Assembly (NCBI GenBank): GCA_029834535.1
Contig: JAQMWT010000523.1
Coordinates: 281,001-345,000, forward strand
Reading direction: 5' to 3'
Source of the DNA: Chrysophaeum taylorii
Taxonomy: Eukaryota > Sar > Pelagophyceae > Pelagomonadales > Pelagomonadaceae
Length of the DNA: 64,000 nucleotides
Positions within the stretch are counted from its first letter, which is position 1. The number at the start of each line of letters is the position of its first letter. The position numbers and the translations under genes are program-made. Under the pieces are notes generated by a model. It saw only the letters and a list, made by a program, of their open reading frames with translations, did not search any database and had not been told where the DNA came from. This document shows, one piece after another, positions 6,487 to 64,000 of the stretch.

Positions 6487-6800
6487 TGCCTGGGTTTTTA
6501 AAAGTCGACTGCTAGGAGGAGGGGCACGGGCGTTGAGGGGTTTCGGGTTGTGTTGAGATGTGAGAGATTCCGGAAAGGCGAAGGGATCCCGCTCAGGGGT
6601 TTTTGGGTTACAGACGCGAGGGGCGCCTGAAAGTCGGGGCCTAGTCGGGGTCATCGCCGAGCCGCGGGGCATGCGAAGAGAGGACGGGCCCCGCCCGTAG
6701 TTTATACGCATGCTGCCTCCGGACGTGTGTACGACGAAGTGTGGCGTCCTGCTGGACGCGGGCTGCCTGGGTGTGGCTGCCTGAGGTGGCAACATGGCTG
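6487..6800 (-). mobile_element. Dispersed repeat, older copy A
   Basis: On the minus strand this copy encodes, just before the stop, LRRTHVRRQHAYKLRAGP, VLSSHAPRLGDDPD, then a spacer and the tail motif (plus strand TTTTAAAAGTCGACTGCTAG at about 6496-6515). It aligns with the copies at 7011-7345 and 63516-64000 but is more diverged, and its frame breaks upstream of about 6830. Conservation of the same reading frame in all three copies implies a protein-coding mobile element. The spacer between ORF stop and tail differs from the younger copies. Family unknown. Confidence 0.65.
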
Positions 6801-7010
6801 AGGGCTATGGCGGAACAAAACGAGGCTTAGCTCGAGGGCTCGCCTAGACACGCCTACACCGTCGCACACTCGAGGTAGTCGGCCTAGGAGGGGGGTACAC
6901 TTCTCTCGTCGCCACAACAATCACTCGCCAAGACCTCTCACTTGAGGCTGGGATATCGTTTTCCTTACTACGAATCGACAGAGGTTTGTCTGTCTGTTTG
7001 TCTGTTTGTC

Positions 7011-7345
7011 TTTAAATGTCGACTGCTTGTCTTTAAATGTCGACTGCTAAGAGGGGGGGGTGTGTGGGGAGCATGAAGGATGTGGGTGGGTTTGTTGGAT
7101 ATGAGGGATGTGCCTGACGGGCGGAGATAAGTACGCGGGACCTAGTCGGCGTCATCGCCGAGGCGTGGGGCAGGCGAAGAGAGGACGGGCCCCGCCCGTA
7201 GGTCGTACGCATGCTGCCGCCGGACGTATATGCGACGAAGAGTGACGTCCTGCTGGGATCGGGCGGCCTGGGTGGGGTTCCCCGCGGCGGCGACATGGGT
7301 GAGGGTTGTTTGTTTGTCTTTAAATGTCGACTGGTAAGAGGGGGG
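7011..7345 (-). mobile_element. Dispersed repeat, young copy B with tandem tails
   Basis: From about 7116 to 7300 this copy is nearly identical to the copy at the right end of the window: I see three substitutions over about 190 bp. Minus-strand coding ends LRRTYVRRQHAYDLRAGP, VLSSPAPRLGDDPD, stop, then about 75 bp and the tail TTAAATGTCGACTGCTAAGA (plus-strand orientation, about 7033-7052), which is duplicated at 7011-7028. On the other side the copy is truncated at about 7303 and abuts another tail (TTTAAATGTCGACTGGTAAG, 7319-7338). So element pieces are joined through their tails, as if insertion targets the tail or its adjacent GTCT/GTTT microsatellite. Confidence 0.7.
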
Positions 7346-7380
7346 TGTGTGTGGCCCCCAATGTAGGGTAAGGATCAGGT

Positions 7381-7960
7381 AGGCGCGCGAGCCAGGCAGT
7401 GATCCTCCAAGCCGTCTGCAGCGACCTCGCAGACTGTTTCCACGACCCGCGGCGGCTCTTTCAGCGCGCCATTCTCACGCCCCGTCGACACGATGTTGTC
7501 GATGCTGACAACGCGCGCATGACCGCGGCCTTTCTTTCCCGGAGACGAGGCGTCGGAGTTCTTTTCGGTCGACTAGGTTGGGTCGGAAGACGACGCCTCG
7601 CTCTTTACAGTCGAGTTTCGACTCCCTGACAACCAACGGCATGCTGACTTTGATCGCGAGCTTAAAGTCTTCGCAACCTCGACCCGTCGCACGGCCACTG
7701 CAACGGTACCAGATACATGATCGATCATGTCGTGTCACCGAGGCTCCTCCAACCTGTATCCCTTAAGGCCCGCCGACGCCAAACGATCAACAAGATTCAG
7801 GGCCAGACGCCCCGCGAGGTCGGCGTCCTCTTGCCCAAGCCCGTCTTCTGTCACGTCCAGCTCTACGTGGCTCTCTGTCGATCGGCAACCCCGAGGATAT
7901 GCTCTTCTGAGTCGACGACTCCACCCTACCCCACACGTGCTGCGCAATACCGATAAGCCC
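7381..7960 (-). pseudogene. Decayed coding-like stretch, probable transposon remnant
   Basis: Two minus-strand frames meet near 7735-7738 with a frame change: an upstream part containing GQEDADLAGRLALNLVDRLA and a downstream part with FKLAIKVSMPLVVRESKLD and NLVDRKELRRLVSGKERPR. The charge pattern looks like real protein, and the location between repeats suggests mobile-element debris. I recognise no domain. Confidence 0.3.
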
Positions 7961-7984
7961 CCTCCCGGCGTCTACACGCGCACT

Positions 7985-8325
7985 GTAAGTGAACTTACTG
8001 GGACCAGGTGAACTTACTGGGGTTTGAGATTGGGATTAGGTGAATATAGTGACCAGGTGAACTTACTGGGACCAGATGAGCTTACTGGGGGTTTTAGAGT
8101 AAACTCAAAGGTTAGCGGCGTGTGCGGATCAAGGCGGCTTAGATTGGCGGAGGCGAGAGCGACGAGCTCAAAGGAGAGTGGGGTGAGTGGGTGTGAGCAC
8201 GAGTGGGTTTACGCCGGGATAGAGATTGGGACTAAGTGAACTAACTGACCAGGTGAACTTACTGCGACCAGACCTGTACTTACTAGGGTTAGAGATTGGG
8301 ACTAGGTGAACTTACTGGCCTGCAC
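7985..8325. repeat. Irregular direct-repeat block, GTGAACTTACTG units
   Basis: The core GTGAACTTACTG occurs at about 7988, 8008, 8056, 8242 and 8308, with variant units (GTGAATATAGTG, ATGAGCTTACTG, GTGAACTAACTG, TGTACTTACTAG) in between. They are interspersed with GAGATTGGGAYTAGG. Spacing is about 19 bp within pairs. The block lies directly upstream of the helix-turn-helix-like ORF at 8502, so it may be the subterminal binding array of a DNA transposon. Confidence 0.65.
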
Positions 8326-8501
8326 TTGTATGTGCTATCAACGTATCCAGCTTGGCGAAAGGCGGCGATCGAAGCGACTTTGACCCTTCTTCACGGCGGG
8401 AACAACGAAATCGACACGAAACCCTCACCAGATTCTTTTTCTCCATGTTGTTGCTGCGGTTTTTGCTCGAAGGCGCTTGTAGAATCGGCGGTTGATCGAG
8501 A

Positions 8502-9790
8502 ATGTCGCCGATTCGACGCGTAGGGGCACGGTCTGAGACCGCCGCTAAGGGGCCGACACGAGCTGAGATGGCCTTGCTGGTGCGTCGAACGGCTTTGGAG
8601 GTTGTTCGGGTGGGCGGCAAGGTGTCGGCGGCTCTGAAGCAGGTCTTCTCGAGGTACGCAGAGCTTCGGCAGGCGACGGTATCGCGCGTCTACGCGGAAG
8701 TGAAGAATATCAAGGAGAACCCGACCTAAGTACTATGCGCCGTGTCTACGACGGAACCCGAGCCTGACCCCGCATTCCCGCCGCCGCCTCGGAAGCGCGG
8801 GCCCTGCCCCTTCTCGAACGGAGGGCGTCGTGGCTCTCGAAGGCGACGAAGGACTGGGCCGCGCGGCGGGCAAATCTCAGGGGCTCAAGGCGATCGTGGC
8901 GACGCGATGTACGGTGCGGACGCGGCGTCCTCCGAGCGTACGGTCGAGCGATACCTGACCTCCAGCTACGTCGATGCAAAGTCTCGTGGCCGGGACACGA
9001 ACTTCAACTTCCCTCCCGACGTGCTCGTGACGCTTGTCAAGCTCGTCGAGGACATGCGCTCTATGCTCATCCCCGTCTGCAAATGGACTGTCGTCGACTA
9101 CGCGCGGCGCCTCGTCGCCCGCTCGTCGCGCGCGCGCATGTTTACGGAAACGGATGATCGTGGACATCAAAGTCGCGACGACCAAGGTAACAACAACGTG
9201 TGGAGCTCTGACAAATGGAACAACTGGTACTACAAAGTTTTCTGCAAGCACCCTGGGGTGTGTGTCGACGGGGAACCAGCTGGCCCGAGCGAAGCGGGTC
9301 GAGCGGCAGCGAGCAGACGGGCGAAATTGACTTCTCGGCTCTCGAACTCCCGACGTGGAAGCGGGCTCGCGAGGAGACAAAGACGGTCGAGCCTGGGGTG
9401 CGGCTGAACTCCGAGGGCATGGAGTATATCGCTTTCGAGACGGAGATTGCGCATATCAAGAACGCGACTGCGACAGACCTCAAGAAGGCCTACGCACTAC
9501 CCGCCTTCAACATTGCCTACGCGAACGCGGACGAGGCCAAGGTTGCCTTGATGCGCGCCATGGAGAATCAATACGGCAAGCAGATCCCCTTGCCTGGGTC
9601 CCCGAGAAGCTCGAGCCGAAGTTCGGAGGCGGTGGCGGCGGCGGCGGCGTGGCCGCTGCCACCACCTCCAAGAAGAAACAAAAGACATCCATCTTCGAGA
9701 CAGGCGGTGGCCTCGCGTGGGCCCGTAGTGTGAGGAGCGCCCCCATCGCCTCTCGGACGCCGCTGTGTGCCCTTCCAACCAACCAAAACA
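8502..9790 (+). pseudogene. Broken transposase-like gene with N-terminal helix-turn-helix
   Basis: Three plus-strand frames carry protein-like sequence in succession. 8502-8729 encodes 75 aa with a helix-turn-helix look (GKVSAALKQVFSRYAELRQA, then TVSRVYAEV). 8742-9260 contains SERTVERYLTSSYVDAKSRG and PPDVLVTLVKLVEDMRSMLI, with KWNNWYYKVFCKHPGV near 9210-9258. From about 9340 a different frame continues with EIDFSALELPTWKRAREET and LNSEGMEYIAFETEIAHIKN up to about 9600, ending in a Ser/Lys-rich stretch. At least two frame breaks are needed to join the parts. No DDE triad is identified. Repeats immediately upstream support a transposon origin; the exact superfamily is not clear to me. Confidence 0.45.
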
Positions 9791-10064
9791 CACCTTAAAC
9801 CAGCAAAATTAATTAACCTAATATCTCTTCGTGTACTTTAGACGGTAGTGATTTGTTGTTCATGCATAGTGCATCTAGGTTTTTCTTATTAGAGTTACCT
9901 TCTGGTGGTGCGCGATCGGCGTTTGAGAAAAGCGACACTCAAGGAACAACCCCCGAAAACGACCGTATCGTTTACAACTCCTAAACCCTATCTCCTCACC
10001 ACGACAACAACGAAAAAATCGTTCGTTCTACCCTCCCACCCACCCCCGAGAAAGAGAATCCGCC
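9791..10064. other. Promoter-side intergenic region
   Basis: AT-richer than its surroundings; it includes the 5' flank of the cysteine-module gene at 10065. No conserved element is recognised. Confidence 0.35.
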
Positions 10065-11705
10065 ATGTTCTCGACGACGACGACGACAACAACAACAACA
10101 AGAAGGTGGTGGGTGTCGTTGTTGTTTTTAGGGCTGTCGGGCGCCGAGTTCAGCTGCTGCTACGCGCCGAGCATCGCAGACCGGTGTTCGACGTGTACGT
10201 TGTTCGCGCCTTCGGACGACTTCTGCGCTGCGAGTCGGAGCAACTGCGAGACGTGAGTATGTATCTATTCTTCCTTCCAGCGATCCGTGTTAGGGCATGT
10301 TCGCACGTGTGGTGCTCGCTCCCCACGGCGAGTCCGACGACCACCGAACCCTCACCACGGCCGTCGCCGGAGCCGTCGACGGCGGCGCCCTCGACGCTCA
10401 AGCCGACGAGTTCTGAACCGACGACGGCGAGGCCCAGCCTCTCGCCGAGCACCTCGGCGCCCTCGACGCCCAAGCCCTCGAACATGCCGACCCCCAAGCC
10501 CTCGCCGCATCCGCCCTCCCCGATTCCAACGCCCTCGCCGACGGCAAGCTATCGGATCTGCTGCTTCTACTCGGAATCGGGCAGGCCCTGCTACGACTGC
10601 ACGGAGCAGAGTTACGTCACCAGCAACGACGAGAACCCCTTCTGCGCCCTCTCGGAGACGAACTGCGAGACGTGGTGCGACGGCACCTATTGCGACGGAG
10701 AGAATGCGGGGACTCCAGCGTACGTGTCTCCGCCGACGCGAAGTCCGACGTTTTCTCCGCCGACGCGGAAACCGACCTTGTCTCCGCCGACGAGAACGCC
10801 GACGACGCCGTCGTCCAAGCCCACCGACGCGCCGACGCCCGAGCCGATCCCCAAGCCTACCTACACGATGAGCCCGACAGCTTGCTCCGACGACCCCGAG
10901 TGGTTCAAATCGGGCGAGAATCTGCTTCCGATCTCGACGACGCTCTGACCTCAGGCGACCCCGACAAGGACTGCGCGTGGGTGCAAAATTTCGTCCCGAC
11001 CCGCTGCGCCGTCAAGGGCGCCACCACCTTCGCGTACCAGGGGTGTCCTGTTGCGTGCGGCACGTGCGCGAACAGCGAGTGCGGTTCCGAATCGACGAGC
11101 TGGTACCTAGGCTCGGAGCCGAGTAAAAACTGCGCGTGGGTCGCAGACGCGGCGGGAAACAGGTGCCACAAGAAGAGCGTGGACGACACCTACGCGTTTG
11201 AGGCGTGAGTGTTTTTTTTTCGCGTTGCTGCAGAGACAAAAACGACAGGTGTCCGTTCGCTTGCGACGCGTGCTCTATTTCGGGCTGCGAGGACTCGGCC
11301 GACTGGGCCAAATCGGGCGAACCGTGCGGTGTTCCGTCGCGTCGTGTGAATCAAATCTCGTGGCAGGTCCAAGGACTGTTCGTGGGTCGCGGAGGCAAAG
11401 TCGAACCGCTGCATCCTGTTGGGAGCCGACGGCGCGTACGCGTACGAGGCCTGCCGGGCCGCCTGCCATTCGTGCTACGAGGCTCTCACGGGAGCCGACT
11501 GCGCGAACGACAATTCATGGTACAAAAAATCTGAACCGGCCAAAACGTGCGACTGGGTCGCTTCCTTCGTGCCAAAGCGCTGCGTAACCAAGGGCGAGGA
11601 TGACGAGTGGGCTTTCGAGATGTGTCCGGAGGTACACCCCACACCATCTTATTTTTCTTCTTCTTCTTCATTTCCCCTCGACCCCAGGCGTGCGACACGT
11701 GTTAG
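10065..11705 (+). CDS. Secreted cysteine-module protein, paralogue A (six exons)
   Basis: Exons 10065-10252, 10294-10913, 10955-11204, 11249-11323, 11367-11631 and 11688-11705 give 471 aa with the frame exact. After a Thr/Arg N-terminus a signal peptide (WWVSLLFLGLSGAEF) is followed by a CC...C..C...FC..S..NC module, a long Pro/Ser/Thr linker (about 85-165), and a second such module (YRICCFYSESGRPCYDC...NCETWCDGTYC). A further PT linker leads to four ~48-residue six-cysteine repeats of the form C...W...P.K.C.WV...RC...A...CP.AC..C. The repeats resemble distant ShKT-like folds; the CC modules resemble C-G-x-W-C modules attached to stramenopile carbohydrate-active proteins (inference). Introns are 41-56 nt; one donor is GC and one is GTGCGG. 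It is a paralogue of the gene at 13775. Likely a cell-surface or matrix protein. Confidence 0.75.
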
Positions 11706-11965
11706 GCGTCCAGTTTTTCTGTTCTTGGGGAGCCACCCCGTCGAAACCAAATTGTCGGTCGCTCGACTCTGTGTCCCCGTCTTGTCCAAGTATCTGTATT
11801 GCGTAATCCATCCACACCTGCGATCGTTCGCGCGGAGGTTTTATGGGGTCGTCCCCGTTTTACAAGTTGTACAAGCATATTCGACCATGAACCATAACAA
11901 CATAGTGTACGATTTTGTGAGGGTTTACTGTCAAGTTCGTTGTTCGGCCCTGCAGGAGGGCCAAA

Positions 11966-12106
11966 GACGCGTCGATCGGCATCCCGGCCTAAGCTGGATT
12001 CGTCGATAGCACACATCTAGTCTAGGAGTAAAAACTACATTTGTCTGTAGAAAAAACAGTGCTCAGCGTCGCCACTGCCTTACGCCAGGATGCCGATCGA
12101 CGCGTC
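11966..12106. repeat. Inverted repeat, 19-bp perfect arms
   Basis: GACGCGTCGATCGGCATCC at 11966-11984 is the exact reverse complement of 12088-12106. Similarity continues a few bases inward (CGGCCTAAG versus TGGCGTAAG), giving arms of about 28 bp around a ~100-bp loop. It may be a terminal inverted repeat, a MITE or a hairpin. Confidence 0.8.
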
Positions 12107-12253
12107 CTCGACCTCCCTTTGACATCCTATATCAATTAAAACCCAAAATAGGGTCGGATAAGATTCCCAAAACCCTCCCAAAAAATTCCTGCACCAGTCG
12201 TGTCAGGGTGAGCTGGTGAACACGCAGGGCGCTGGGTGGTAAGGAGTAAAAAT

Positions 12254-12315
12254 AAAGGGTTAGGGAGTATATTTAAGTGGTAAAGGAGAAACTTAAAGGG
12301 TTAGGGAGTATATTT
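12254..12315. repeat. 21-bp direct repeat
   Basis: AAAGGGTTAGGGAGTATATTT, as 21 identical positions, occurs at 12254-12274 and 12295-12315. Similar in style to subterminal transposon repeats upstream of a transposase remnant. Confidence 0.7.
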
Positions 12316-12689
12316 CAGAGGTTAGAGTTTGCGGTGTCTCTTGATTTTTGCGTGGCGCTGGTAGCGCCTCGCTGAGGACCGCGACAACATGTCGGCAGCG
12401 CACGTACTGGAAGTGCTGCTGGACACTCCTGCAACTGTTTTGATGGCCTCCACGGACGAAACGCGCTTCACATCAACCCGGCTCCACTGGTTTTACAACT
12501 CAGGTGACAAGCATGGCAAGCTTTTTGTCAAGTAGCGACCAACGTGACAGATCCCGATGTTTACGACGAAAAAAACGACGACGGCGACAACGATGTCGAC
12601 CTCACGATCGATCCGACAATCAAGCCCCCTTAGAAAAGGTCTTCCTATCTGAGCGCGGCGGCGTGTCAAGTGGTTCCAGTCTGCGGCTC

Positions 12690-13330
12690 TCTAGACGCTC
12701 AAGGTTGGCAAGCAGCACCAAGGCTTCTGGGACTCGGACAATTTTCTCCTTCAGGTCGAGGACGCCCTGGATGTCATGGAGATTTGGTACCTTCGTCACC
12801 AGTTCCTAATTGAGGTCGACCACTCGTCGTGACACGTATCACTCGCTCCGTGGACAGCTCGACAAGTTCGGCGACGTCGTTCCGGAGACCTCAAGCAAGG
12901 AGATCCTCGGGAATTGCCCGGACTTCAAGAACGAGCTCAACCTCCTCCAGCAGCTCGTTCTTGACCGTGGCCACGTCCTACTCTCGTCGCCGAAATACCA
13001 CCCAGAGCTCTCTGGCGATGGCGTTGAGTACGGCTGGGGCCAGTCAAAGCGGTACTACCGCAAACATAACACCGGAAGAGAACGTGAGATGGCGTGCTGA
13101 CAACGTGAGCGCGTCTTCGACAGCATTGGCCCCAAAAACCTTCCGCCTCTCCGGCGGTTCTCTCGCGTCGCCCGCGAGTACAAACTCGTCTATACCGCTG
13201 CGAGGACGTGGGCCCCGCCGAGTTCGAACACGCCAAAATCGAGCAACAAAGAGAGGCTGAGCGTCTGTCTCAAGCGCAAACATTCCTTCCATCGCGCGAT
13301 CGACGCGTCAATTCTATTCGCGTTGACTCT
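12690..13330 (+). pseudogene. Broken DDE-superfamily transposase
   Basis: Two consecutive plus-strand frames carry the C-terminal half of a eukaryotic DDE transposase. The first, about 12705-12830, reads QGFWDSDNFLLQVEDALDVM then QFLIEVDHSS, containing a catalytic-type Asp in EVDHSS. After a stop and frame shift, about 12895-13100 reads ILGNCPDFKNELNLLQQLVL, then GHVLLSSPKYHPELSGDGVE and YGWGQSKRYY, where the PKYHPEL...E block holds the third acidic residue. A third frame continues as FDSIGPKNLPPLRRFSRVAR to about 13190. This order is familiar from DDE transposases of fungi and oomycetes. Stops and at least two frameshifts make it inactive. It sits between the two cysteine-module paralogues. 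Confidence 0.75.
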
Positions 13331-13774
13331 GGAGGGGGATAACGTCGCTGACTTGCTAAATGCATGACTCTGGTGATGAACTCGGGACACGAAAGCGTGG
13401 CGAGGGGACTAGGAACAGCCCCCTCGCGTATCGGGGCCGCTCTGCGGTCCGTCTTGAGTCACTTCCGACCGCTTGCGGCCGCACGTAGGGCGCCGAAATT
13501 GGACTCGTAATGCCGACGCCAACTTCAGGCGTAGTGTATATAAGTCATACGGGCTCGCCCGGAGTAAATTGTACTACCTTCACGGGCAGCCCATTCGGAC
13601 CTCCTCGGAGGCCCGAACGAAACTCCGGTCCAAATCGACTGATTTCCCCCTCAAAAAACCTGCAGACTCAAACGGGGTTTGTGGTTGAATATTATGCTTG
13701 TAGCAAGCGCGTCGAGTCTACACAGGCCCAATGGATTTTTTTCCTCAAAAAATTCTGTTTTCGAAAAAACAGTG
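13331..13774. other. Intergenic region upstream of paralogue B
   Basis: Holds the end of the transposon relic and the promoter of the gene at 13775. The segment is AT-richer near 13720-13770 (runs of T and A). No gene supported. Confidence 0.35.
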
Positions 13775-15565
13775 ATGATACGACGGCGTCTGAGTGGAGC
13801 CTTGGTCCTCGCGGGGGCGTGGGCCGAGGACTTCAGCTGCTGCTTCTATCCCGCCGTGAATAACCGGTGCGCGGTGTGCGAGACGTTCGCGACGTCGGAT
13901 GACTTTTGCGCACAGAGCCAGAGCAACTGCGAGTAAGTCCCTCGAGAGAAGCACAACAGTCAGTCAGTCAGTCAATCAATCAATCAATCGCAGGGACCAA
14001 TGTCGACACAAGTGGTGCCGGCTGCCAACAGCCTGCCCGACAATCCCCGCGCCGTCGCCGCGCCCCTCGACCGCACCGACAACCCTCAAGCCCACGATCT
14101 CAAAGGCGCCAACGACGGCCGCGCCCTCGACTACGGTCCCGACGACGGCCGAACCCTCGACTCAGGTCCCGACGACGGCCGAACCCTCGACACTTCTGCC
14201 AACGACCTCGAAACCGACGACGTCGATGCCGACCACCTCGGGACCGACGACCTCCGAGCCCACCACGTCGCGGCCGACCTCGAAGACGCCCACGACCTCG
14301 GAGCCCACGAGTCCTGCGCCGTCGCCGTTCGCGGGCTACCGGATCTGTTGCCTATTTTCCGAATCAGCGAGCCCCTGCTTTGACTGCAGCGGCTTCGCAG
14401 CCAGCACCGACGCTAACCCGTTCTGCGCGCTCTCGGCGTCGAACTGCGAATCGTGCGAAGGAACGTTTTGTCCGGGCGAGAACGCCGGCACGGCCGCTTA
14501 TACGTATCAGCCCACGCGAGCGCCGACGCCCAAGCCACTTCCGACGCCCAAGCCCACCATTGCGCCCTCGTCTTCGGGCTACAGCATATGTTGCTTGTTC
14601 TCTTCGACGGGCGCGCCTTGCACGGCGTGCGGCGGATTCATCGCGAGCACGGACACGAATCCGTTCTGCGCGTCCTCCGAAGCAAACTGCGACTCGTGCG
14701 GCGGCGAATTTTGCAAAGGGGAGAACGCGGGCACCGCAGCATACACATTTCCACCCACACCCGAATCCGCCGCCGTTTCATCGTGCTCCAACGATCCGAC
14801 GTGGTACAAGCGGGGCGATCCCGACAAGGACTGCGCGTGGGTGGAAAAGTTCGTACCAACCCGCTGCGCCGTCAAGGGCGCCACCACCTTCGCGTACCAG
14901 GGGTGCCCTCTTGCGTGCGGCACGTGCGCAAACAGCGAATGTGGTGCCGAATCAACGAGCTGGTACCTCGGCTCGAACCCGAGCAAAAACTGCGGGTGGG
15001 TCGCGGACGCCGCGGGAAACAGGTGCCACAAGCAGGCTGACGGCACCTACGCGTTTGAGGCGTGAGTGTGTTTTTTTTTCTCTCGCGCTGCTGGCTGGCT
15101 GTAGAGACAAAAACGGCAGGTGTCCTTTCGCCTGCAGCGCGTGCTCCATTTCTGGGTGCGAGGACTCGGACGACTGGGCGAAGCCCGGCGAACCGTGCGG
15201 CGTTCCGTCGCGTCGTCTGCATCAAATCTCCTGGCAGGTCCAAGGACTGTTCGTGGGTCGCCGAGGCCAAGTCGAACCGCTGCATCGTGCTTGGAGCTGA
15301 CGGTACGTACGCGTACGAGTCGTGCTCTGCGGCGTGCCACTCGTGTTACGAGGCTCTCGTCGGATCAGACTGCGCGAACGACGAATCTTGGCATAAGAGA
15401 GCAGACCCATCAAAAACGTGCGACTGGGTCGCTTCGTTCACACCCGCACGATGTCTCGTGAAGGGCGAGGACGACGAGTGGGGTTTCGAGATGTGCCCCG
15501 AGGTAGGTGATCCGTTCGGAAGAACTGATTTTTTTTTCCCGTCTCAGGCGTGCGACGCGTGTTAG
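13775..15565 (+). CDS. Secreted cysteine-module protein, paralogue B (five exons)
   Basis: Exons 13775-13932, 13994-15061, 15120-15194, 15238-15502 and 15548-15565 give 527 aa. The start is the ATG before a signal peptide (MIRRRLSGALVLAGAWAE). Modules in order: a CC...C..C N-terminal module; a Thr/Pro/Ser linker with PTTSEPTTS-type repeats; two CC modules (YRICCLFSESASPCFDC and YSICCLFSSTGAPCTAC), each ending NC...C.G.FC; then four six-cysteine repeats (for example DPDKDCAWVEKFVPTRC and DPSKTCDWVASFTPARC). Paralogue A has one fewer CC module but an extra intron inside repeat 1. Exons 3 and 4 of B (75 and 265 nt) equal exons 4 and 5 of A exactly, and their introns share GTGCGG donors. A recent tandem duplication with a transposon between is the simplest reading. 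Confidence 0.78.
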
Positions 15566-17090
15566 TAGTTGACCACTCCCCGTCGAGATCGCGATCCTCC
15601 TCTTCGAGGGAGGAAGTCGATGCTCGGTCTTTGGTGGAGATGATGTTCTGCTTTGCGTACTACGCTTTCGACTCGGACTTATTATTCTGAGTGCGGACGA
15701 TGCGCGAGACCGTCGTTTGTTCGTTCTTGGCCCGTATGCACGTATCGTGCGCAGCGGCGCGCGCACCGCCACCCACTACGAGTAGCACACACCTTTTTTT
15801 TGGCTTGTCGACGACCCCGGTATAGGGCGTAGGCGGGCACAACGCTCCGATCATCATCGCACCCGCCGGGGGATAATACTGACGTGCTCGAACCATCTAG
15901 CCTCGCCTGGCTTGTTTTGTACAGAAGAAATGACAGCTCGTGCGACAACTACTATGCTGGTTAGCCTCGTTGAATAAATAGGGTCGCCCCATCACCGCGA
16001 CCGCCAGCGCGGCGGCGGCAGCCAGTGATGATCTCGGATTTTAGATGAAAATTAAGACAAGCGAATTCGATCACGAACCCGCGGAACGGAGCGCGAAGAT
16101 AGGGAGGAGGAGGATTTGGTGACTATTCGGACTTCTAAATGTGTCTGTCACTCGGCGTAGCTCTCGAGAGGGAGGGATTTCAACACGCCGCTCCAGGAGC
16201 TAGCTATAGCCATGTTGGGAACGACGACGACGACGATAGCGGCGGACATCTCGACGTTCACGAAATGTGCGGTTAGGCCGGCCGTATAAGAGAGTTCCCC
16301 GCGCCGCGAGCGTCGTGGAGCACGGAAAGCGTCTACGACCCTCCTCCAAAGATCATTTATTTTTGCCTGAATCATTCATTCCTTCTGGAATCTCACCGCT
16401 CTTGTTCCTCGGGTGATGCTGTTTTGATTTACTACTTTCTGACGCGCCACATTTAAAAAGTAGACGTTGTAGCCATAGGCAAAAAAAAGTCGCGCGTGTG
16501 GTGTGGGCGGGCGACATTGGTGCCGTGCGGTTGCTTCAAGGAGGTCGATGATGAAGGCATCTCGCCCCTTTGAGCGACGAGCTTCATCGGCCACGTGGTC
16601 GTCGCCCGGCTCTTTGCGCGGCGCCAACCAGCCATTGGTGTTCGTTCGTGGTATCACGCCGCTGGTCACGTCGACTTGGTGCGCCTTTTGACTGCTGACC
16701 CATTTATTAGACACATCCTTGATGCCCCCACACAACGCACCAAAACCTTCAAACACCCACCCCCTCTTAGCTAGTCGACCTTCAAAGACCCTCTTAGACA
16801 CGCAGCGCGTGGTCTTGTGCGGCGTGACGCGCATCGATTTAACACTCGACCGCGGCCACGACGCCGTCGCGCGCGGCTACTCGCCGCCAGTTATCTTCTC
16901 GACGACGTCCTCCCTCCCTTCGTTGTTCGGCCCATGATATTGACCTCGTGGGTGGTTCGCGGCGCACAGCAGGGAAGTGGACATAATCCTCGCTGCAGTC
17001 GAGACCCGGTAGGTATGTCGCGGCATATGGAAAAATCAAGTGTCGCCGCTGTTCATTACACAGCACAAGCGGCGGCCCCACCGTCCATCC
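15566..17090. other. Gene-poor region
   Basis: No gene can be supported. A 152-codon minus frame (16376-16834) contains a charged stretch (NGWLAPRKEPGDDHVADEAR) but has no recognisable domain and may be mobile-element debris. A solo repeat tail lies at about 16757-16797. The rest shows no structure I can interpret. Confidence 0.4.
16757..16797 (+). repeat. Solo tail motif of the dispersed repeat
   Basis: CCACCCCCTCTTAGCTAGTC followed by GACCTTCAAAG matches the reverse complement of the tail seen at 7033-7056 and 63520-63580, with one inserted base. No element body is recognised next to it. Confidence 0.5.
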
Positions 17091-19692: not shown

Positions 19693-19779
19693 TCTTTTCT
19701 TTCCGTTAAAAATGGCGTCGTCGTGCTTGAATATTTATTTTCCGTTGGTGGTGGATGGCGCGCTAGAAAGGTGTGAGGA
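19693..19779. promoter_or_regulatory. 87-bp divergent promoter region
   Basis: The ATG at 19692 (minus) and the ATG at 19780 (plus) face away from each other across only 87 bp, including an AT-rich TTGAATATTTATTTTCC stretch. Core promoters of both genes must be within it or extend into the coding parts. Confidence 0.5.
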
Positions 19780-22095: not shown

Positions 22096-22432
22096 TAGCG
22101 CGCCTTTGGAGGAGGTGAGTTTTCTTTTCGGGGGGGGGGCAACCAATATTAGCCAATAGTGATAGTGATGATGTTCGAATAAATGGCCCCGCCATATAAC
22201 AACGATATACAAGTACGCCGAAATTCACGGGGCGGGGTGTGTGGGGACTAGGTGGTTTTTATGTGCGCAAACGACTCACTCGCCTCAAGGGCTCCTCCTC
22301 CTCCTCTTCGAGGCGCGCAGCTAAAATAAAACGCGAAGATCCAACAATTCGCCGCCAACTGTTGTTGTTTGTTTGTACACTGCAGCATCTCAGAAGATCT
22401 GATCAGAAGATACTTTGAAGATACGTAACGAC
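22096..22432. other. Intergenic region
   Basis: Contains the DNAAF2 3' flank, a 10-bp G run near 22129 and the promoter of the gene at 22433. No gene seen. Confidence 0.35.
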
Positions 22433-36349: not shown

Positions 36350-37617
36350 TAATTTGATGGCACCTCCTCTTATTACGACTCGAGACGACGATTCTGCCTG
36401 TTTGACGTCTGCAACGGACGAAACGGCGACTGGAAACGCGACGCGCGAGACGTGCGAGACAAGAGGGACCCTGAGAGAGGGTTTTTTTCCATTTGCCATA
36501 TGCCTGGGCATCCGGCGGGACGATGTCTAACGCTGAAGGGGGGGGGGCGGGGTCCGGAGAGGCATGCATGCCCAGCGAAGTGTGGTGGCTCTTTCTTTAT
36601 GTAGTGAAGCGCAGGCTCCCCATCCATCATGGGCGCCGTAGCGACGCGCGCCGAAGGTAAGGTTTGGGCCGCCGATATTTGGATGCGCGTCGCTCCTAGC
36701 TCGCTTTGCGCTCCACCCAGAACTTGTGCGGCCGTGGCACCACCTCCACGAACGTTCTAAACACCCACAAAGTGTGGAAGACCCAAAGAGAGTCGGCCAT
36801 CAAGAAGGACCCTGAAATACAACATTCTGCCTTTTGGAATGATGATGCTAGTTTGTGGATTCCAAATTGAGCATGTTCGTTCGTCGGGGGCTTCCGTATT
36901 ATGGCCCGCGCTTGGGTAGGGGTCGTCACGTGCAGCTATGAAAAATTTGGGCTAAGAGGGCCGGTATGCATATCCACAGGTCAATGCGACGTTTGTCGTC
37001 GCTTGCGTCGAACTTTGACCAACTGCACGTGTGATACAGGTCTGCGGGACATCTGCGGCCGCCGTCTCGTCAATCAACGTCGTCGTCATGCTGATTCACA
37101 TAGTCGTTCGTCATCCTGGACTTACTTCGGCGCACCTGTTCATCTCGTTCTCCTTGCTCTGATCGTGTTCTCGTCTCGCCCTCGTTGTACCAAGAAGGTA
37201 ATTTACGAGGCGCAATCAGAGTATTTTTTCAATGATGAAAGGCGACACTGCTAAAAAAAGGGAGGCAGGTGACAGCATGCGACGGGGCTTTGGGAAGGTG
37301 TGAGAGGCAGGAGAAGCAGCCTGGCTCTCTGTGCCTGGAAGTTGCTAACCGTAATAATTAATTACCAGGGTTTTTTTGGGCCGGCCGACTCGGGGGAGGT
37401 GTAATAGCGGGAGGGAGAGACACATCCAGTGGTTTCTTTTAAGGTCGATTGCTAAAAAGGGGAGTGCGGTAGTGCGCGCAGGGGCTTGAGGACGTGTGAC
37501 TGGCTTGGTTGGTCCAAAGGTGCCCAGTGGGAAGGCGCTTTATTCGCTGTATGAGGTCCTTCCCCCGGCACAGGGTACACGCAGGCAGGGTTTAGTTTGA
37601 GGAGGGTGGTGATTAAG
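36350..37617. other. Gene-free interval with a solo repeat tail
   Basis: 1.27 kb with no convincing gene. A 117-codon plus frame at 36901-37254 has several Cys (GQCDVCRRLRRTLTNCTC) but no signal peptide or known domain, and is not called. The dispersed-repeat tail occurs at 37436-37462 (TTTTAAGGTCGATTGCTAAA). Confidence 0.4.
37436..37462 (-). repeat. Solo tail motif of the dispersed repeat
   Basis: TTTTAAGGTCGATTGCTAAA then AAGGGG matches the tail TTTTAAAAGTCGACTGCTAG of copy A with a few changes. It precedes the mutarotase gene by about 150 bp; no element body recognised. Confidence 0.45.
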
Positions 37618-53109: not shown

Positions 53110-53575
53110 TGTCAGCCCGCCGTCTGTCTAGGAACGGGCGGACTGGACTGACTCCGCCTGTGCACTCTAGCTCATCGCAGAATGTCCCCAGTGTAGTAGA
53201 CAATAATAAGACTAGGATAATTAGGTCCAAACCAATTATTCTTTTTTGATCACCCTAATCATCATCTGGGGAACTAGCTGACGAGACTCGTCGAGAGTGT
53301 GTGTCGTGGACTGGGATATAATTAATGATCTGTTAGATTTTTTGGTTCGCTCAAGAGAGGCAGGCGCCTTCAAGCTTATCGACTTAGCACAGAGAGACCG
53401 CACTAGTTCGTAGTACCTCTTTCTTTAAAGAAAGAACAACCTCTGAATTACCACCCACCCCCCCTCTTAGACCCATAATTATTATGAACGACTATCAATT
53501 GGACATTTTGCTGTCTTTTGTGTGCGTCGCGGTTGGCTAGACTCCTCCTCCTCACGGATTTGTCCTTTTGCTCAC
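53110..53575. other. Tail-to-tail region between the two giant genes
   Basis: 466 bp separate two convergent stop codons. AT-rich in part. CCACCCACCCCCCCTCTTAG at about 53451-53470 repeats the core of the dispersed-repeat tail. No gene seen. Confidence 0.45.
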
Positions 53576-56500: not shown

Positions 56501-58544
56501 AACAAAGTCGCAAGGACACGCTGCCGTCACGTTAAGAAGACTTGTTGTTGTTGTTGAATTCCTGCCGATGCTGGTATCGTCTTTCGATTTTTTTGTGCCA
56601 GGAATGGCGAGTGCGACAGTCGTTGGTTCATCCACGAGCTGGGAATTGCTGCTGGTGCTTAGGGAAACGTCGAGCTCGAAGCGAAGAACTTGCGACGTGG
56701 CCTCTGCGCCATCGTTTTCTCTTCCGTGCGGGTTGATGCCGAATTCGGTGAGCGACGTCGCGTACCCGAAGCCGAGTTCGGGGGATAGAGTGACCGAGGC
56801 ATTCATTTCGTCGGTGGTGATTATGCGCGCCTCCTCGCCGTAGGCAGCAGATATGCGCGCGCTTGCTGTCTTCACGTGGTCTGACGCGGCCCCCGCGGAA
56901 TCTTCGTTGTCTACGAGCGTGTCGCGCTGCGATTGCGCAACCGAATCAACCGTGGCGAGTAGCAGGGTTGACGCGTTCGCTCCGTCTTCGTTCGTAAGTT
57001 GCCGAGATCGAGTCTCGTTTTGTCGGATTATTTCGTCGAAGACTTCCGTTTCGAGCAGCGACGAGAGGATCTGAACCGTAAGCTCTGGAGCTTCGGAGTC
57101 GCCTTCTCCAAGGCCTGTGCGTGCCACTGCTGCCGCGAGATCGCTCACGATATCGAGAGCCTCGAACGACGCCTCTTCCTCGAGGCCTCCTGGATCGGAA
57201 ACTGGCGACAAGAGGGCGGCGAGTGCCTGGATAAGGAGCTCGCGATCGTCGTCGACGAAATTTTCGACCGCAATCGCGAGCGCCGAGACCACCAACGAGC
57301 GTACCGCACGAGATTCGTTCGCGCTCGCAGTTTCGGGAGCCGACGTCACGATCTGGCACACGTCATCGAGCGAGTACCGTGCGAAGGCCGACGCGAGAGC
57401 CGCGGCGGTATCATTAAAGGTGATCCCAACGACGTTGGATTCGATGTGCACGAGAGTGCTCAACTCGGTTTCGGCTCCGTAGACGTCCGAGACCCTGACG
57501 GAGACCGTCAAATTTGGTTCTCTGAAGCCTAGAGGCAGGCGCGCGTCATCGAGGTTCGGGTCGAGCGTCGAGCTCCGCAAGATACCACGTTCTGTGGAGA
57601 ATTGGTACTTGAGCGGGTCTTCTCCGACCCAGCTCGCCGCGCGAAGACGAAAGAGATCCGAGAAAGCGACGCCGCGTTGTGGCGCTACGTCGAGAGACCC
57701 AGAACTGGGCGGTGCCGCGACACTTATCGACACCGAGGCGAACCCGACTTCGCCGTTCGCGTCGGCTTCGAGCGCGAACGTATACGTGCCGCCAGGCACC
57801 AACGTTGATGGAGAAAGCACAAGGTCGTGCGCTCGCGAGATCGCCAGCGACGATTTCGCATGCTTTGTCGAGACCGTGACGGGCGTGCGTGCGGCAGCCT
57901 CGAGACTCGCGCCGCTACTGAGCTCACCTCGCGTGACTGCCCACGTCGAATTGAGGAACGTCGGAGCATCATCGGCACGGCCCGCAGCAACCGAGATGTC
58001 GCCGGCAATTGTCAGCTTCTCGTTTGAGAGAACAGGCTCCGCGAAGCTTGCGACCTCGACAATAGGTAGGATTGTGGTGGTGGTTTTGGTGTCCTTGATT
58101 GTGACGACAGACGTTGTCGCGGTCGACCTCGAGTCGGCCGCGAGAACAACCACGGAAAACGCATACGCGCCTTCCTCTTCGAACGTCCCGCCGGCGACGA
58201 CCAGATTTGCCGTATCTGTCCCGGTCAGGTTGACGGCGCAATCTCCCCCCGACTCGGTTTCGCACGACCACAAGAAAGCGAGGTCGGCGTCTTCTCCCGG
58301 GGCAACATCTTCGTCTCGCGAGGTTCCAGCAGAAAGCGTAAACGTAGATATAAGGGAGGTCGAACGCTCGTTGCCACCGTCGATGACGGCAAGAATGTCG
58401 CCAGACTTAACGGTGATTGTAACCTCCGCCGTGTTGCTGAGCGTCGGAAACATCTGGTCTCGCGCGGTCGCTCGCAGCGAGTACACCGACCCCGTCGTTA
58501 ACGAGAAGGCGTCGAGCTTGTACACCGAGGGATTTCTTGCTACC

Positions 58545-58575
<31 letters not shown>

Positions 58576-61500
58576 GCATCGAAACTTCCGACGACGACGC
58601 TCCTCCTTCGAACAACAGCAGCAGCAGCCATTCGAAGTCGACTTGGCGCTCAGAGTTGGGCCGGCCGTCACAGTTGGTCGCGAATGCCTCCGCGACGACC
58701 TCGAGCTCGTCGCTCCGTTGGATCTCGAGTTCATTGCCACCAATAATGATAAGCGATGGCACTTGATCGACCACCAATGTCACCGCGAGAGACCCGTTGC
58801 CCGTAGCCCCGAGGTAGTTGCTTGCACTCAACGCGACCGTCAGCTCGTCGCCGTACGCGAGGAAATCTTGGAGCTGAGAACTGTTGAGAGAAAAATATGC
58901 CGATCGACTTCTTTTTGTCGATACCGCAAGGACTGTGTCGCTTTCCGAGTCCTCGACCGTGACCGTCCAGGTGAACGACATGTCGCGACCGCCGCCCCCG
59001 GTCGATTGGTCGGCAGAAACGAGAACGTCTTCGCATACCGATGCGAGAGCTGGTCCCTGGAGTACAACCCTCGGAACTACCGCGTCTGTCGGTTCGCGAG
59101 CGACAACGCTAGATACGTCCGCGAATTCCAGACAGTCGCAGCGAGCGCTCGCCGCCTCGAAGGGACACACTCCCTTGAGCGTATTCGATCGCAGGGCAAC
59201 CGTGCCGCCCGGAAAAAAAGATACGGAGTTGCTGACTTGAGCGTTGATCCACGTCGCGTTGATGAAATAACAGTCTGCTTTGGTTGCATCCTCGAATGTA
59301 AGTATTTCGTCGCAACTGAATGTCTCGCCCGCCATCTTTCCGGCCTGGTCTGTTGGCGAGTCGAAGACTACGAGTACTTCCGCCGCGGTCGAAGTGAAGG
59401 CGGCATCGGCCAGTTCAGGAGGGCTCGGAAGATCCAAGTCGCCGCATGATGTCGGATTCGCACTTGGGACCACGGTCGGGTTGGAGGTCGCCGCTGTTGG
59501 CATCAACTGGTTCGGAAAAGATATCAACAACGTTGGCTCGGGTGACACGATTGATGACGGTAGTCTGGCGTATGACGGCGAGGCCGCGGGTGATGAGGAT
59601 TCCAGTATGGTTGTTGACGGGGCAGAAAGCATCGTCGGCACAAGTGTCGGAAGCTCCTCCACAGATCGCGCGTTGGGTGACCACGTTGGGGGGAAAATGT
59701 CCGAAAACGTCGGCAAGAAAGTCGGCAGCACTGTTGGTTCCGGCATCGGTGCAACCGGGAACGGGGTCATCGCGCGACTTGGCTCGAAAGTAGGTGGGAA
59801 CGGTGACGGCGTCGGCGCGGGCGTTGGGTTGAGTGTTGTTGGCTTGGGTGTGGGTGGTGTTGTAGGAACGTAAGTTGGTCTGGTGGTGGTCGGAGGATAC
59901 ATGGGTCGGGAGGTGGTTGGATTTTTGCTCGGTGCTCGCGTCGGATAAAGACTTGGCAGAGCTGTCGGACTGTCTGTCGGTGGCGTTGTGGACGACGGCA
60001 AAAGCGTCGTCGGATTTGTGCTCGGCTCGTGCGTCGGCAACGGCGTCGCGATCGTCACAGCACTTGTTTCGGCGATCTCGTCGATCGACGCGGCCTGATC
60101 CACGACGCTTCCCGAGAGCGACGAGTCATCGCTCGCGGCCGTTTGCAGCGCGGTCTGGAGCGCACTCGTCGAGCCGGAGACATTCACAGCACTAGTCAGT
60201 TCGTCTTTGACCTTGTCTACGAGGTCATCGGACTGTGTGGACCCGCTAGACGAGGAGAATTCGATGTCGAACGTGACATCAATCAAACCCGCGGCGTCTT
60301 CGAGCGAGCGACGGTCCGATATTGAGCGATCTGTTGCTTCGACGTTCTTGATCTGGCTGGAATCTGAAACGACGCCCAAGACGTCGTTCAAAGCAGTCTG
60401 GACGATCGCTTCCTCCTCGTCTCCAAAATCCGAGGCGCCGAGGCCGCTCAGCACGAAGCCGGACGAGACGACGGTGACCGCGTCGGCGGCCGTGGGGATT
60501 CTGGTTGAAGGTTGAAGCGTGGGTATTCTCGAGGGTGCCCGAGTCGGCGGCATCGTTGATGAGGCTGACGGAGGCAACGTAGGCGTCACCGTGGATGTTG
60601 CGCTTGGACACAAAGATGGAGCAAACGAGGGTCCTGAAATGGGACCGGGCGACGGGACGAGCGTCGGCGTCACCGTTGGACGCGCGGACGGGACCGCCGA
60701 CGGGAACGGAGATGGGACGAATGTAGGTGCCAACGTTGGATACGTAGAGGGGAGTGTTGACGGGGCCGGAGACGGAACAAGCGAAGGATTTGACGAGGGA
60801 GACTGGGTCGGAGCAAGAGTCGGCACGACGGTTGACGCGACGGTTGGGATGACAGTTGGCAGAGATGTCGGCGAGGGCGTCGGAAGAGGCGTGGGATATG
60901 CTGATGGGGAAAGCGAAGGTATCTTCGACGGTACGACAGTCGACTCGATCGTTGGCACGCTCGTCGGAAAGTAGTAAAAACCTCGAATCTCTGTGCAGTT
61001 AGCGTAGAGCACCGACGACGAGACGTCGACGGTCGCTGCCGATATGTTGGTCGCTTTGTTTGTTGCGTTGGCTATGGAGTCGATCGACGTCTCCAGGTCG
61101 CCCGTTTGAACGGCCGCGCGGAGCTGCTTTGTGAACTGTGCGAGGATCGCCTTTGCTTGGTCGACGCCGCCGGCTCGCTCGTAAACCTCGAAGTTGACGA
61201 CTAGACTGCTGCTGACTTCCTCTGTCCGTCGGCCGGTTGAACGATTACTGGCGGTAAGTGGCTCGTCTCCTCCTCGCGGAGTAGCTTCATCTTCTTTGAT
61301 CACACAATTCGTCGTCGTCGACTGTAGTCGCCTCTGGGGCGTCAGATCGTCGACAAACGCGGAGACGAGGTCGTCGAGCGAGGTCACGTTGACCTCGGAG
61401 GCGTTTTCAACGATGTCGACCGTCTCCACCAGGGCCAAAATGAGGACGGTCTCGTCGATAACGCGGAACTGCGCGCTCGAGATCGACTCAAAAACGACAC

Positions 61501-62161
61501 CGGTTTCCATCGCGAATCGCACAATCTCGCCAGTCGGCGCGAACGTTGACGTCGGCTCGGAGGACGGCAACGCTGAGCTCGGAGCCGGCGTCGTCGGCAC
61601 TGATGTGGGCAGCGAGCTTATCGTCGGCATCCTAGTCGGTGCGCTCGTGGGTACCTCGGTCGGAAACGAGAACGAGAAGACCGCGTCGAGCAAATCGGCC
61701 GACGCCGAGACCGCGACGTAGGCATTGGTGAGGGCCGATTCCATCGGGTCGCAGCACCGAGACAGCTCGTTCTCAAGTGGCACGGTACCGTTCTCGTTCA
61801 CGCTCACGGCCAGGTCGACGGCGTTTTTGAATTTGTTGGCTCGGACCCCGGCCTGAGTCGCCGAGGCCGCGTAAAACGCCGCGTCCAAAAAGATGTCGAC
61901 GAGGTCAGTCTCGTAGTAGTACGTGGACGTGCTTGTTTCGGCAGTCACGTTGCGGATCTCGTAGCTAAAGCTCACCTTGAGGGCGTCGTTAAACGCGCTC
62001 ACAAACTCCGCGGCCTCGACAGTAAGCTCATCAGCAGTAAGTCCCGCGAGGACAAGGCCGTAGCTCCCCGTTGCCAGCGTAGTCGCGGTTGTCGGGGCGG
62101 GCGTTTGGGCCAGCGCGTATGGGAGCCACGACGCCAGGATGCGCAGCAGCAGCAGCATCAT
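53576..62161 (-). CDS. Giant REJ/GPS-like seven-helix membrane protein
   Basis: 2861 aa in one exon from the ATG at 62161, where a signal peptide begins (MMLLLLRILASWLPYALAQT). Three SEA-like modules (for example GYGLVLAGLTADEL-type and VVSSGFVLSGLGASDFGDEE) are separated by long PT/PS linkers (VPTVAPTLAPTQSPSSNPS style) to about residue 900. Then comes a large beta-rich REJ/PKD-like region (about 900-1900; FTLSAGTSRDEDVAPGEDAD, FAFLWSCETESGGDC-like). A GPS-like Cys motif near 1930 reads CSTWDPSLKQWTIPDSC and CECRVDT, lacking the HLS/T cleavage site. Helices are at about 1989-2009, 2093-2113, 2191-2213, 2617-2641, 2648-2670, 2754-2775 and 2818-2837. The loop between helices 3 and 4 holds an acidic stretch and a long coiled coil (about 2420-2600). 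It recalls polycystin-1/adhesion-receptor architecture without LRR, PLAT or the channel part. Confidence 0.78.
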
Positions 62162-62595
62162 GGCGCGACGAACGATGTCAGGGACCGTCGCCCCTATTAA
62201 ACAAACAAACAAACAAACAAACAGACGAACAAAAATTGGATCTGCTGTACTGTAACTCGGTGCAATATAATAATGAAAGAGATGCCACGTCATCACTTGA
62301 GGCTTAAAATTTTGCACCGGACACCTCTCCCTAACGATTCGTATGTATCGACAAGAAGCATCGCACAACAACAACAACCCAGAGCAAAGCAAGGACAAAA
62401 CGAACCATTCGGTCTGTCGGGAATAAAAGCGTGCTACCCGGAGAAAAGGGGGGGGGGGTAGGGCAAAAGCACGAGATGTGCACCGCTGGCAGCAAGGGGT
62501 CGCCGATATCCGCCCGAGAGGAGAGAGTGTGATAGAAGAATGGCCGGGTCTGGTTTCAAGGGCCCGGTGTGGATGTGTGCTGCGTGCTTCCTGCC
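62162..62595. promoter_or_regulatory. Promoter side of the giant minus gene and 3' end of the BET gene
   Basis: Holds an (ACAA)n run at about 62199-62222 just upstream of the ATG at 62161, a CAACAACAAC run near 62365 and a G10 run near 62448. No gene seen. Confidence 0.4.
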
Positions 62596-63307
62596 TTATT
62601 GCTTGGCCTTTTTTGCTTTGGCTTCGCCGCCCTCAGTTGAGGAGGAGGCGGCCTTTTTTTTCTTTTTGGGCTGTGCTTGCGCGATACAGTGTCGCACGAA
62701 CCTGTCGAGTTCGTGGAAAGTCTTCGGGTCGATCGCGTCGATGTTAATCTCGATCTCGTCTTCGTTGGTGCTCTTGTCCATCGCCTCGCTGCACCTCTCT
62801 TCCAACTTTTCCACGAGCTGTCCGAGCTCCTCCTGTTTGATTTTGTATATGTTGTGCGAAAAGCGTATTTTCTCCTCGTGACTCGGCGCGTGATCCGTCT
62901 CCTCCTCAACAGCGGGATCGTCTGTCTTGATTTTGGAGTACTTGTCCTCGAATCGCTTCGAAAATGTATCGGCGAGGTTATAAAAATCCGAGCCGTCCTG
63001 GTTGTACTTCTTGCAGTTTGTCCAAATCAGCCGGACGTCCTCGGCGCACTCCTGGACCGACTGGTACACCCCCTTCTCGATGTTGCCCTTGACCGTCGAC
63101 AGGTCCATCGGCTTCTTTATGATCTGGGGGTAGTCGTATAATCCGAGCGACCGCCAGTCGACCGGCTCGCGGAACGGCACTGCCATCAACACACCTCAAG
63201 ACGACGACGACGACCACGACTACAAATCACAACAACAACAACAAAAAAAACCGACCCGAATCCGGCTTGCTGATGAGCTGGTTCACGATCTTCGCCATCG
63301 CCTCCAT
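62596..63307 (-). CDS. Minimal BET protein: one bromodomain plus NET domain (two exons)
   Basis: Exons 63307-63256 and 63194-62596 (minus) encode 216 aa. The 61-nt intron has donor GTCGGT and acceptor TTGAG, and splicing gives MEAMAKIVNQLISKPDSG then VLMAVPFREPVDWRSLGLYD. The first exon supplies the missing first helix of the bromodomain. The core is complete: DYPQIIKKPMDLSTVKGNIE, then WTNCKKYNQDGSDFYNLADT with the acetyl-lysine-binding Asn in KKYNQ. The NET domain follows (EEKIRFSHNIYKIKQEELGQ, then EIEINIDAIDPKTFHELDRF) and a Lys-rich tail (QPKKKKKAAS) acts as a likely NLS. BET proteins read acetylated H3/H4 and recruit transcription factors. Animal BETs have two bromodomains and plant GTEs one; this is an especially short form. 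Confidence 0.88.
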
Positions 63308-63420
63308 GATGGCGACTCACTCCGCTCCGAGTGGGTGGTCGGTCCGGCACCCTCTACCAACCTTTCCGCGGACACTCGCTCCCAGTAGGGAGGTAGGTCC
63401 GTTGGGGATGAGGTTCTCAA

Positions 63421-63468
63421 CGAACGAACGAACGAACGAACGAACGAACGAACGTACGAACGAACGAA
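63421..63468. repeat. (CGAA)n microsatellite
   Basis: Twelve CGAA-type units with one CGTA interruption, located between the BET promoter and the young dispersed repeat. Confidence 0.9.
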
Positions 63469-63515
63469 GGAAAGGAAGGAAAAGGAACACTGTGTATGTC
63501 CGTCTGTCTGTCTGT

Positions 63516-64000
63516 CTTAAAATGTCGACTGCTAAGAGGGGGGGTGTCTGTCTGTCTTTAAATGTCGACTGCTAAGAGGGGGGTGTGTGTGGGGAGCATG
63601 AAGGATGTGGGTGGGTTTGTGGGGTATGAGGGATGTGCCTGACGGGCGGAGATAAGTACGCGGGACCTAGTCGGGGTCATCGCCGAGGCGTGGGGCAGGC
63701 GAAGAGAGGACGGGCCCCGCCCGTAGGTCGTACGCATGCTGCCGCCGGACGTATGTGCGACGAAGGGTGACGTCCTGCTGGGATCGGGCGGCCTGGGTGG
63801 GGTTCCCCGCGGCGGCGACATGGGTGAGGGCGGTGAGGGCACAGCGAGCCCGGCCTAATGCGTTGGCGATCCCCCACTCACGGTAGATGCGGCGAGTTTG
63901 GGCCGCCTTTGCCTCTGTGAAGTTGGCGCAGCCGCTTGTCACCCAAGTTCGCGCAGCGATGCGCTCTGCGCATGTTTGGGCGAGAGCGTGGCACGCCGCG
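63516..64000 (-). mobile_element. Dispersed repeat, young copy D with open ORF (runs off window)
   Basis: On the minus strand a frame is open from the right window edge to the stop at 63667: ACHALAQTCAERIAARTWVT, SGCANFTEAKAAQTRRIYRE, WGIANALGRARCALTALTHV, AAAGNPTQAARSQQDVTLRR, TYVRRQHAYDLRAGPVLSSP, APRLGDDPD. About 75 bp after the stop come two tandem tails (CCCCTCTTAGCAGTCGACAT on the minus strand) separated by GACA repeats. It is about 98% identical by eye to copy B over ~190 bp. The protein has no domain I recognise; basic, with an RRxY..RRQ motif. A tail of tandem copies next to a GACA microsatellite recalls the 3' end of a non-LTR retrotransposon. Confidence 0.7.

Follow-up and report, generated by a model that had tools for sequence, protein, structure and literature searches.

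The window, by which is meant the whole stretch of 64,000 nucleotides of Chrysophaeum taylorii DNA analysed here (contig C523, positions 281001-345000, of a genome assembly of 70.8 Mb in 697 contigs), contains several copies of a repeat that share a minus-strand reading frame and a common tail. These repeats are 5′-truncated copies of a young long interspersed nuclear element (LINE), the 3′ ends of a non-LTR (long terminal repeat) retrotransposon designated M, and some of them lie within a second, Helitron-like repeat, designated X, the terminal 23 bp of which are referred to as T2. The element M is very probably a LINE that inserts by target-primed reverse transcription before the trinucleotide GAC, often in the microsatellites of X or in its own tails. 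Genome loci are identified by the prefix L and contigs by the prefix C, and the copy at L061 serves as the reference for M.

Copies of M in the window

The copies A, B, and D of a preliminary description of the window (Table 1) all maintain the same minus-strand frame up to the same stop, as stated there, although the ending RLGDDPD, attributed to all three, is found in A and D, and reads RLGDDAD in B. Copy B had been taken for a single copy abutting a further tail, but is a set of three M insertions nested in X, the parts of which are located at 7365-8319 and 6962-7011. The order on the minus strand is the body of X, an ultra-short M insertion, a longer one, a tail stub, the microsatellite, and T2. 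The tail, described as duplicated in both B and D, is duplicated in D (63517 and 63557) and tripled in B (7011, 7032, and 7319). Copy D extends to the end of the window, where it meets 2.5 kb of N (L009, 1001-3500) that make the sequence beyond it unreadable. Recent spread had been proposed for the repeat. Alignment shows 6 differences in 274 bases between B and D, which are thus young, and 24 in 171 between A and D, so that A is older.

Solo tails had also been reported near three positions. The one near 37440 corresponds to a match at 37437, and the one near 16760 corresponds to a diverged tail read by eye at 16764, which has an extra base and is not recovered when up to five substitutions are allowed. 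Near 53461, by contrast, CCCCCCCTCTTAG stands alone, and the tail search recovered nothing. The control for this search, 20 shuffles of the window, returned 0 or 1 match each.

Table 1. Copies of M and parts of X in the window (positions of the window).
Feature	Position	Strand	Details
Body of X, about 1.05-kb Helitron-like repeat	7365..8328	-	BLAST 7365-8319, 91.8% identity; CAAGTGCAGG end maps to about 8328
Ultra-short M insertion directly behind the body of X	7319..7353	-	M reference 5068-5102
M insertion: last ~53 codons, stop, 3′ untranslated region, tail	7032..7305	-	M reference 4827-5102
Third M tail stub, 16 bases (GCAGTCGACATTTAAA)	7011..7026 (about)	-	
Target: microsatellite (GACA/AACA)n belonging to X	6985..7010	-	
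T2, end of X	6962..6984	-	3 mismatches here; other DNA beyond
Copy A, older diverged M	6497..6805	-	86% over 6635-6805; tail at 6497
Copy D	63557..64000	-	M reference 4657-5102, 98.7% identity
Second M tail beside copy D	63517..63536	-	then GACA stretch without T2
Diverged solo M tail	37437..37456	-	4 mismatches in 20
Diverged solo M tail ending TTCAAAGAC, then CCTCTTAG stub	16764..16789	+	by eye

A different LINE was also observed, at L009 (3506-4486) and L022 (1-2946), with a decayed piece seen by eye at about 6090-6180 of the window. This LINE has a strong match to RVT_1 in L022, together with an APE-like N-terminus seen by eye and not present in the Pfam output. Contig C696 (L011-L014) carries several reverse-transcriptase (RT) frames, the translated one resembling, by eye, a group II intron protein, and is perhaps organellar. 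The genome is eukaryotic by its size and the style of its genes. The large subunit of Rubisco is encoded on contig C697, and its best matches among solved structures are diatom enzymes. Together with the long PTxxPT runs in the proteins of the window, this suggests a photosynthetic stramenopile as the host.

Truncation and coding region of M

The 20-base tail of M occurs in 2,265 exact copies (1,099 + 1,166) on both strands of many contigs of the genome, and the control, the same 20 bases read backwards and uncomplemented, does not occur in it at all. The tail in the form AGCAGTCGACATTTAAA has 2,363 exact occurrences genome-wide. The copies of M share the 3′ end TTTAAA, while their 5′ starts vary from nt 2313 (L062) to nt 5078 (L046) of the reference, to which they are mostly 91-99% identical. 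In three loci found through the tail (L001, L006, and L008), 11 copies match over just 42-156 bases. When the C-terminal 107 residues of the protein were used as a query, 1,827 candidate places were obtained, 150 of which were scored. The start of M at L061 lies near nt 732 and is marked by the duplication GACAGAAG, and the copies at L105 and L118 reach further upstream. No full-length copy was seen and the complete 5′ end of M was not found. Two places were inspected among the low-identity RT matches, of which L120 is a frame-broken copy of M (94.6% at the DNA level), and L119 an older M (85%), in which the match stops before the nuclease segment. A scan of viral contigs for relatives found none.

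The preliminary description had suggested a search for RT upstream of the truncated frame, and RT was indeed found in the same frame in the longer copies. At L061, the open frame upstream of the same stop spans 1,396 codons and contains RPIG, NAFN, GGQQGDP, and MDDG at residues 533-698 (located by script), the motifs of a reverse transcriptase. A 301-aa segment of this frame matches the Pfam family RVT_1 with E=0.0042, over positions 8-192 of the 205 of the profile, which is below the curated cut-off. A PD-x12-D-I-K motif, also located by script, follows on the C-terminal side of the RT, at residues 1190-1206, and marks a candidate PD-(D/E)XK restriction-like nuclease, recognised by motif alone. 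The copies of M in the window do not include this segment.

Further upstream, the single frame of L118 (nt 2-4153, then broken) passes through a RING-like Cys/His cluster and continues into the RT. In L061, the remnant of the finger lies in a different frame from the RT, and in L105 a stop lies between the two, so the case for a single open reading frame (ORF) with finger and RT comes from L118. The 96-residue finger segment matched no Pfam family, while a 46-residue part of it matched RING_XB3 over 19 residues, under the cut-off (E=0.045). In the PDB, the finger retrieved the Arkadia RING first (E=0.69 and 3.9), and a non-RING protein at similar values (E=0.8 and 0.91). The C-terminal segments of M had no Pfam match over the cut-off. 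The layout of the protein would be a low-complexity N-terminus, a RING-like finger, the RT, a linker, a PD-(D/E)XK-like nuclease, and a C-terminal part.

Selection was evaluated in 31 copies with a minimum length of 400 bp and a minimum identity of 95%, fetched by high protein similarity, which introduces a bias against stops. The changes found in single copies are 39 synonymous and 79 nonsynonymous, with no stops, a synonymous share of 0.33 compared with a neutral expectation of about 0.31. Given this, the truncated copies look neutral and young. Neutral decay is expected of LINE copies that are dead on arrival. The changes common to two to four copies are 5 synonymous and 2 nonsynonymous, those common to at least five copies are 6 and 11, respectively, and copy A differs from the reference at 11 synonymous and 10 nonsynonymous codons, too few to judge. 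The conserved ORF claimed for the repeat is intact in frame, but this is explained by youth, and the truncated copies show no dN/dS (nonsynonymous to synonymous rate ratio) signal.

Target sites and the microsatellites of X

A total of 76 copies were read, 69 of them with a readable 5′ flank and seven unreadable. As the loci were chosen by a match to the tail, the C-terminal region, T2, or the RT, and not at random, the shares of the different flanks hold for this sample. The 5′ flank is an M tail in 29 of the 69 copies, the microsatellite of X in 18, T2 in four, and other DNA in 18, which makes M itself and X (47/69) the main sites of insertion in the sample. The suggestion that a young mobile family enters its own tail or the adjacent GACA/GTTT microsatellite is borne out by the first two of these figures, although the repeat tract belongs mainly to X, rather than to M. 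Genome-wide, an M tail is followed by T2 at a distance of 10-40 bases at 532 places.

Target duplications, another of the checks suggested at the outset, were sought in the 18 copies with a 5′ flank that is not M, X, or T2, considering duplications of at least 8 bp, with one mismatch allowed from 11 bp onward. Ten of these copies have such a duplication, whereas 500 shuffled pairings of the flanks gave a mean of 0.46 and a maximum of 2. The filled and empty states of one site could also be compared. The copy at L041 sits in another dispersed repeat, and the query formed by joining its flanks runs uninterrupted at 97-99% at no fewer than 40 places. The sequence GACATCATACC is found once in the unfilled paralogues L085 and L086, and on both sides of M in the filled L041, with one extra A. 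This 11-bp duplication, single in the empty site and double in the filled one, is the pattern that target-primed reverse transcription leaves.

The bases behind the tail follow a simple rule. Genome-wide, GAC follows 2,219 of the 2,363 exact tails (93.9%), compared with about 1.6% by chance, although the members of arrays are not independent. It was likewise found behind 73 of the 76 3′ ends read, and in 23 of 24 further loci (among these, L097 coincides with L051). In seven of the ten duplications (L001, L022, L041, L051-4593, L053, L056, and L061), GAC begins the duplicated sequence on both sides, so it belonged to the target, and in L051-5031 the duplication has CAC on both sides. The possibility that the microsatellite itself is copied from the M RNA was considered and rejected, given that L041, L053, and L056 stop at TTTAAA, with merely the duplicated target behind it.

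The 23 bases of T2 have 1,655 exact copies in the genome, and follow an M tail and (GACA/AACA)n at many places. Twenty places, mostly isolated ones, were surveyed out of 100 listed of the 1,655, and in 18 of these the tail of X lies upstream of the microsatellite (in L065 with M in between), the exceptions being L066, where there is no more than a short stretch of GACA, and L079, with M tails. On this basis, T2 was rejected as a host target, and identified as the end of X. Beyond T2, the DNA varies among the places in 16 of the 20, while the remaining four show the end of M in inverted orientation (L063), further X sequence (L064 and L081), or a second T2 (L082). An inverted M end starting CTGCTAAGAGG directly adjoins T2 in four loci (L035 at 3172, L036 at 2490, L037, and L063), possibly a single event copied with X.

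The repeat X forms head-to-tail arrays of units of about 1.05 kb (L083 and L084). When reversed, it starts with TC, at the T2 end, with a TGTC/TGTT microsatellite close by, and contains broken helicase-like frames, as seen by eye. The base beside its other end is T (A in the sense of the element) in 24 of 28 contexts, while that beside T2 is not fixed (C in 28, T in 22, and A in 12 of 62). Two fragments of X showed no helicase in Pfam, and no CTRR was seen at its ends. A query with the helicase fragment of X gave 8,425 first-look candidates, of which 150 were scored. Helitron/HINE elements are marked by a 5′-TC start, a T beside the 3′ end, helicase remnants, and a lack of target duplication, and the features seen in X resemble theirs, its membership in the group being putative. 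These elements are known to bear microsatellites, according to the part of PMC4067079 available, which also cites, by title, a case of a (GTCY)n microsatellite. Judging from the same source, the Helentron-type DINE-1/HINE elements are non-autonomous rolling-circle relatives that, like X, bear a microsatellite, whereas X differs in its helicase-like remnants (by eye) and its tandem arrays of about 1 kb.

Within an array, adjacent copies are mostly truncated at different points (L001, L052, L054, and L057). At L114, successive copies of different length each stand before GACC(T/C)ACCTATCC, the last of them ending with the locus. As TTTAAA|GAC persists after each insertion, the same place can be used again by the next one. 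Repeated insertion probably builds up the arrays of very short copies, with tandem duplication contributing in part. A repeat resembling a miniature inverted-repeat transposable element, with inverted ends TAGGGTCGGATAAGAAA or near variants, was also observed in or beside M tails at L055 (between the tail and T2), L006, L049, and L091, while at L058 M has landed in a possible DNA transposon, a repeat bounded by the inverted ends AAATAAGGGACCGA (by eye).

Proposed mechanism of insertion, alternatives, and relatives

The proposed mechanism of insertion is target-primed reverse transcription. The predicted nuclease of M probably nicks the target just before GAC, and the 3′ end of the M RNA, which may be UUUAAA, perhaps with GA or GAC, would be copied from the nick. 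Copying would usually be incomplete, leaving 5′-truncated copies with duplications of some 8-18 bp, mostly beginning with GAC. The GACA/AACA microsatellites, plentiful at the end of X, would offer many GAC sites. Each new TTTAAA would keep GAC behind it, permitting re-entry at the same place and the growth of arrays.

A number of observations weigh against this mechanism. The tails of copy A and L087 are followed by AAC instead of GAC. Eight of the 18 copies lack a duplication of this length (8 bp or more), and of the ten duplications present, two (L001-5062 and L051-4593) lie in microsatellite, where matching is easy. The other five sites of the joined-flank query had no informative match among the matches listed. 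In the protein, Pfam found no RT in the whole ORF, phmmer searches of the PDB with the whole ORF and the RT segment found no match up to E=10, and the nuclease segment matched no nuclease in Pfam or PDB sequence searches, its sole PDB match (phmmer) being an irrelevant MarR regulator (E=0.5).

The tails might instead be satellite or minisatellite DNA that has spread through unequal recombination, the ORF being a passenger. Three further observations fit duplication or deletion better than insertion, and also count against the proposed mechanism: the tail pairs repeated every 366-370 bp from C6:90792 onwards, the two units of L046 with nearly identical truncation, and the near-identical contigs C25 and C521 (L019 and L020), perhaps alleles, which differ by a single M tail unit. 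The differing truncation points, the duplications outside M and X, the unfilled paralogues, and the presence of the tail on both strands all contradict this explanation, which fails already for the isolated copies, and is very improbable for the family as a whole. Insertion could also be almost random, with the GAC rule resulting from the pairing of the 3′ end of the RNA (TTTAAAGAC) with short homologies in the target. The copies at L059 and L060, in which G or GA is present at the 3′ junction only and missing from the 5′ copy of the duplication, point in this direction and against GAC as a property of the target alone, and suggest that some of the GAC may come from the end of the RNA. The seven duplications with GAC on both sides show that it was present in the target, which makes near-random insertion unlikely, although pairing and nicking may both contribute to the rule.

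The position of M among the LINEs is less clear. It may belong to the LINEs with a restriction-like endonuclease (RLE; R2/R4/NeSL/CRE/HERO), among which Dong or some HERO elements likewise target microsatellites, an assignment that is possible but doubtful. A nuclease-like motif does follow the RT, and the available text of PMC4640811 and PMC3636483 reports a preference for repeats in this group, Dong (of the R4 clade) and the microsatellite-specific HERO being, like M, LINEs with RT and nuclease found in microsatellites. However, according to PMC5678591, the RT and the nuclease of RLE LINEs are separated by a highly conserved zinc knuckle, CX2-3CX7-8HX4C, and the catalytic lysine of the PD-(D/E) core has shifted to KX2KY. 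A regular-expression search found no such knuckle in the L061 ORF, and no KX2KY was seen in M by eye, the lysine being in D-x-K. Since the knuckle is lacking and, by eye, a candidate D-x-K takes the place of KX2KY, M was not filed among the R2-type RLE LINEs, although its mode of insertion resembles that of a nuclease-bearing LINE with a preferred target. It differs further from Dong and HERO in its GAC-start target, often on another repeat, and in re-entering its own tail. Tentatively, M could represent a LINE lineage of its own, with RT and a PD-(D/E)XK nuclease with the ordinary D-x-K lysine, no zinc knuckle, a RING-type finger, and a self-renewing niche formed by the microsatellite of X and its own tails.

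The Zepp element of Coccomyxa/Chlorella, as portrayed in the part of PMC3446292 available, is likewise an algal LINE with clusters of nested copies, a likeness of description and not of protein comparison, although Zepp forms one cluster per chromosome, whereas M is dispersed and linked to X. A literature search, judged by titles and abstract openings with partial coverage and few subscription journals, found nothing on a LINE in the microsatellite of a Helitron or with a RING finger. The parts are thus known (a LINE, a microsatellite target, and nesting), while their combination with an unusual nuclease signature, a Helitron-like carrier, and a GAC site that every insertion retains is new to the present authors.

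If the reading of the nuclease is true, M would provide a second kind of restriction-like endonuclease in LINEs, besides the R2 type, which bears on the gain and loss of endonucleases in these elements. Tetranucleotide repeats beside such tails can be the targets of insertion, and need not arise by slippage. M would be a clear example of a selfish element that builds its own landing ground, by means of a short target motif left intact on insertion and of the microsatellite of another mobile repeat.

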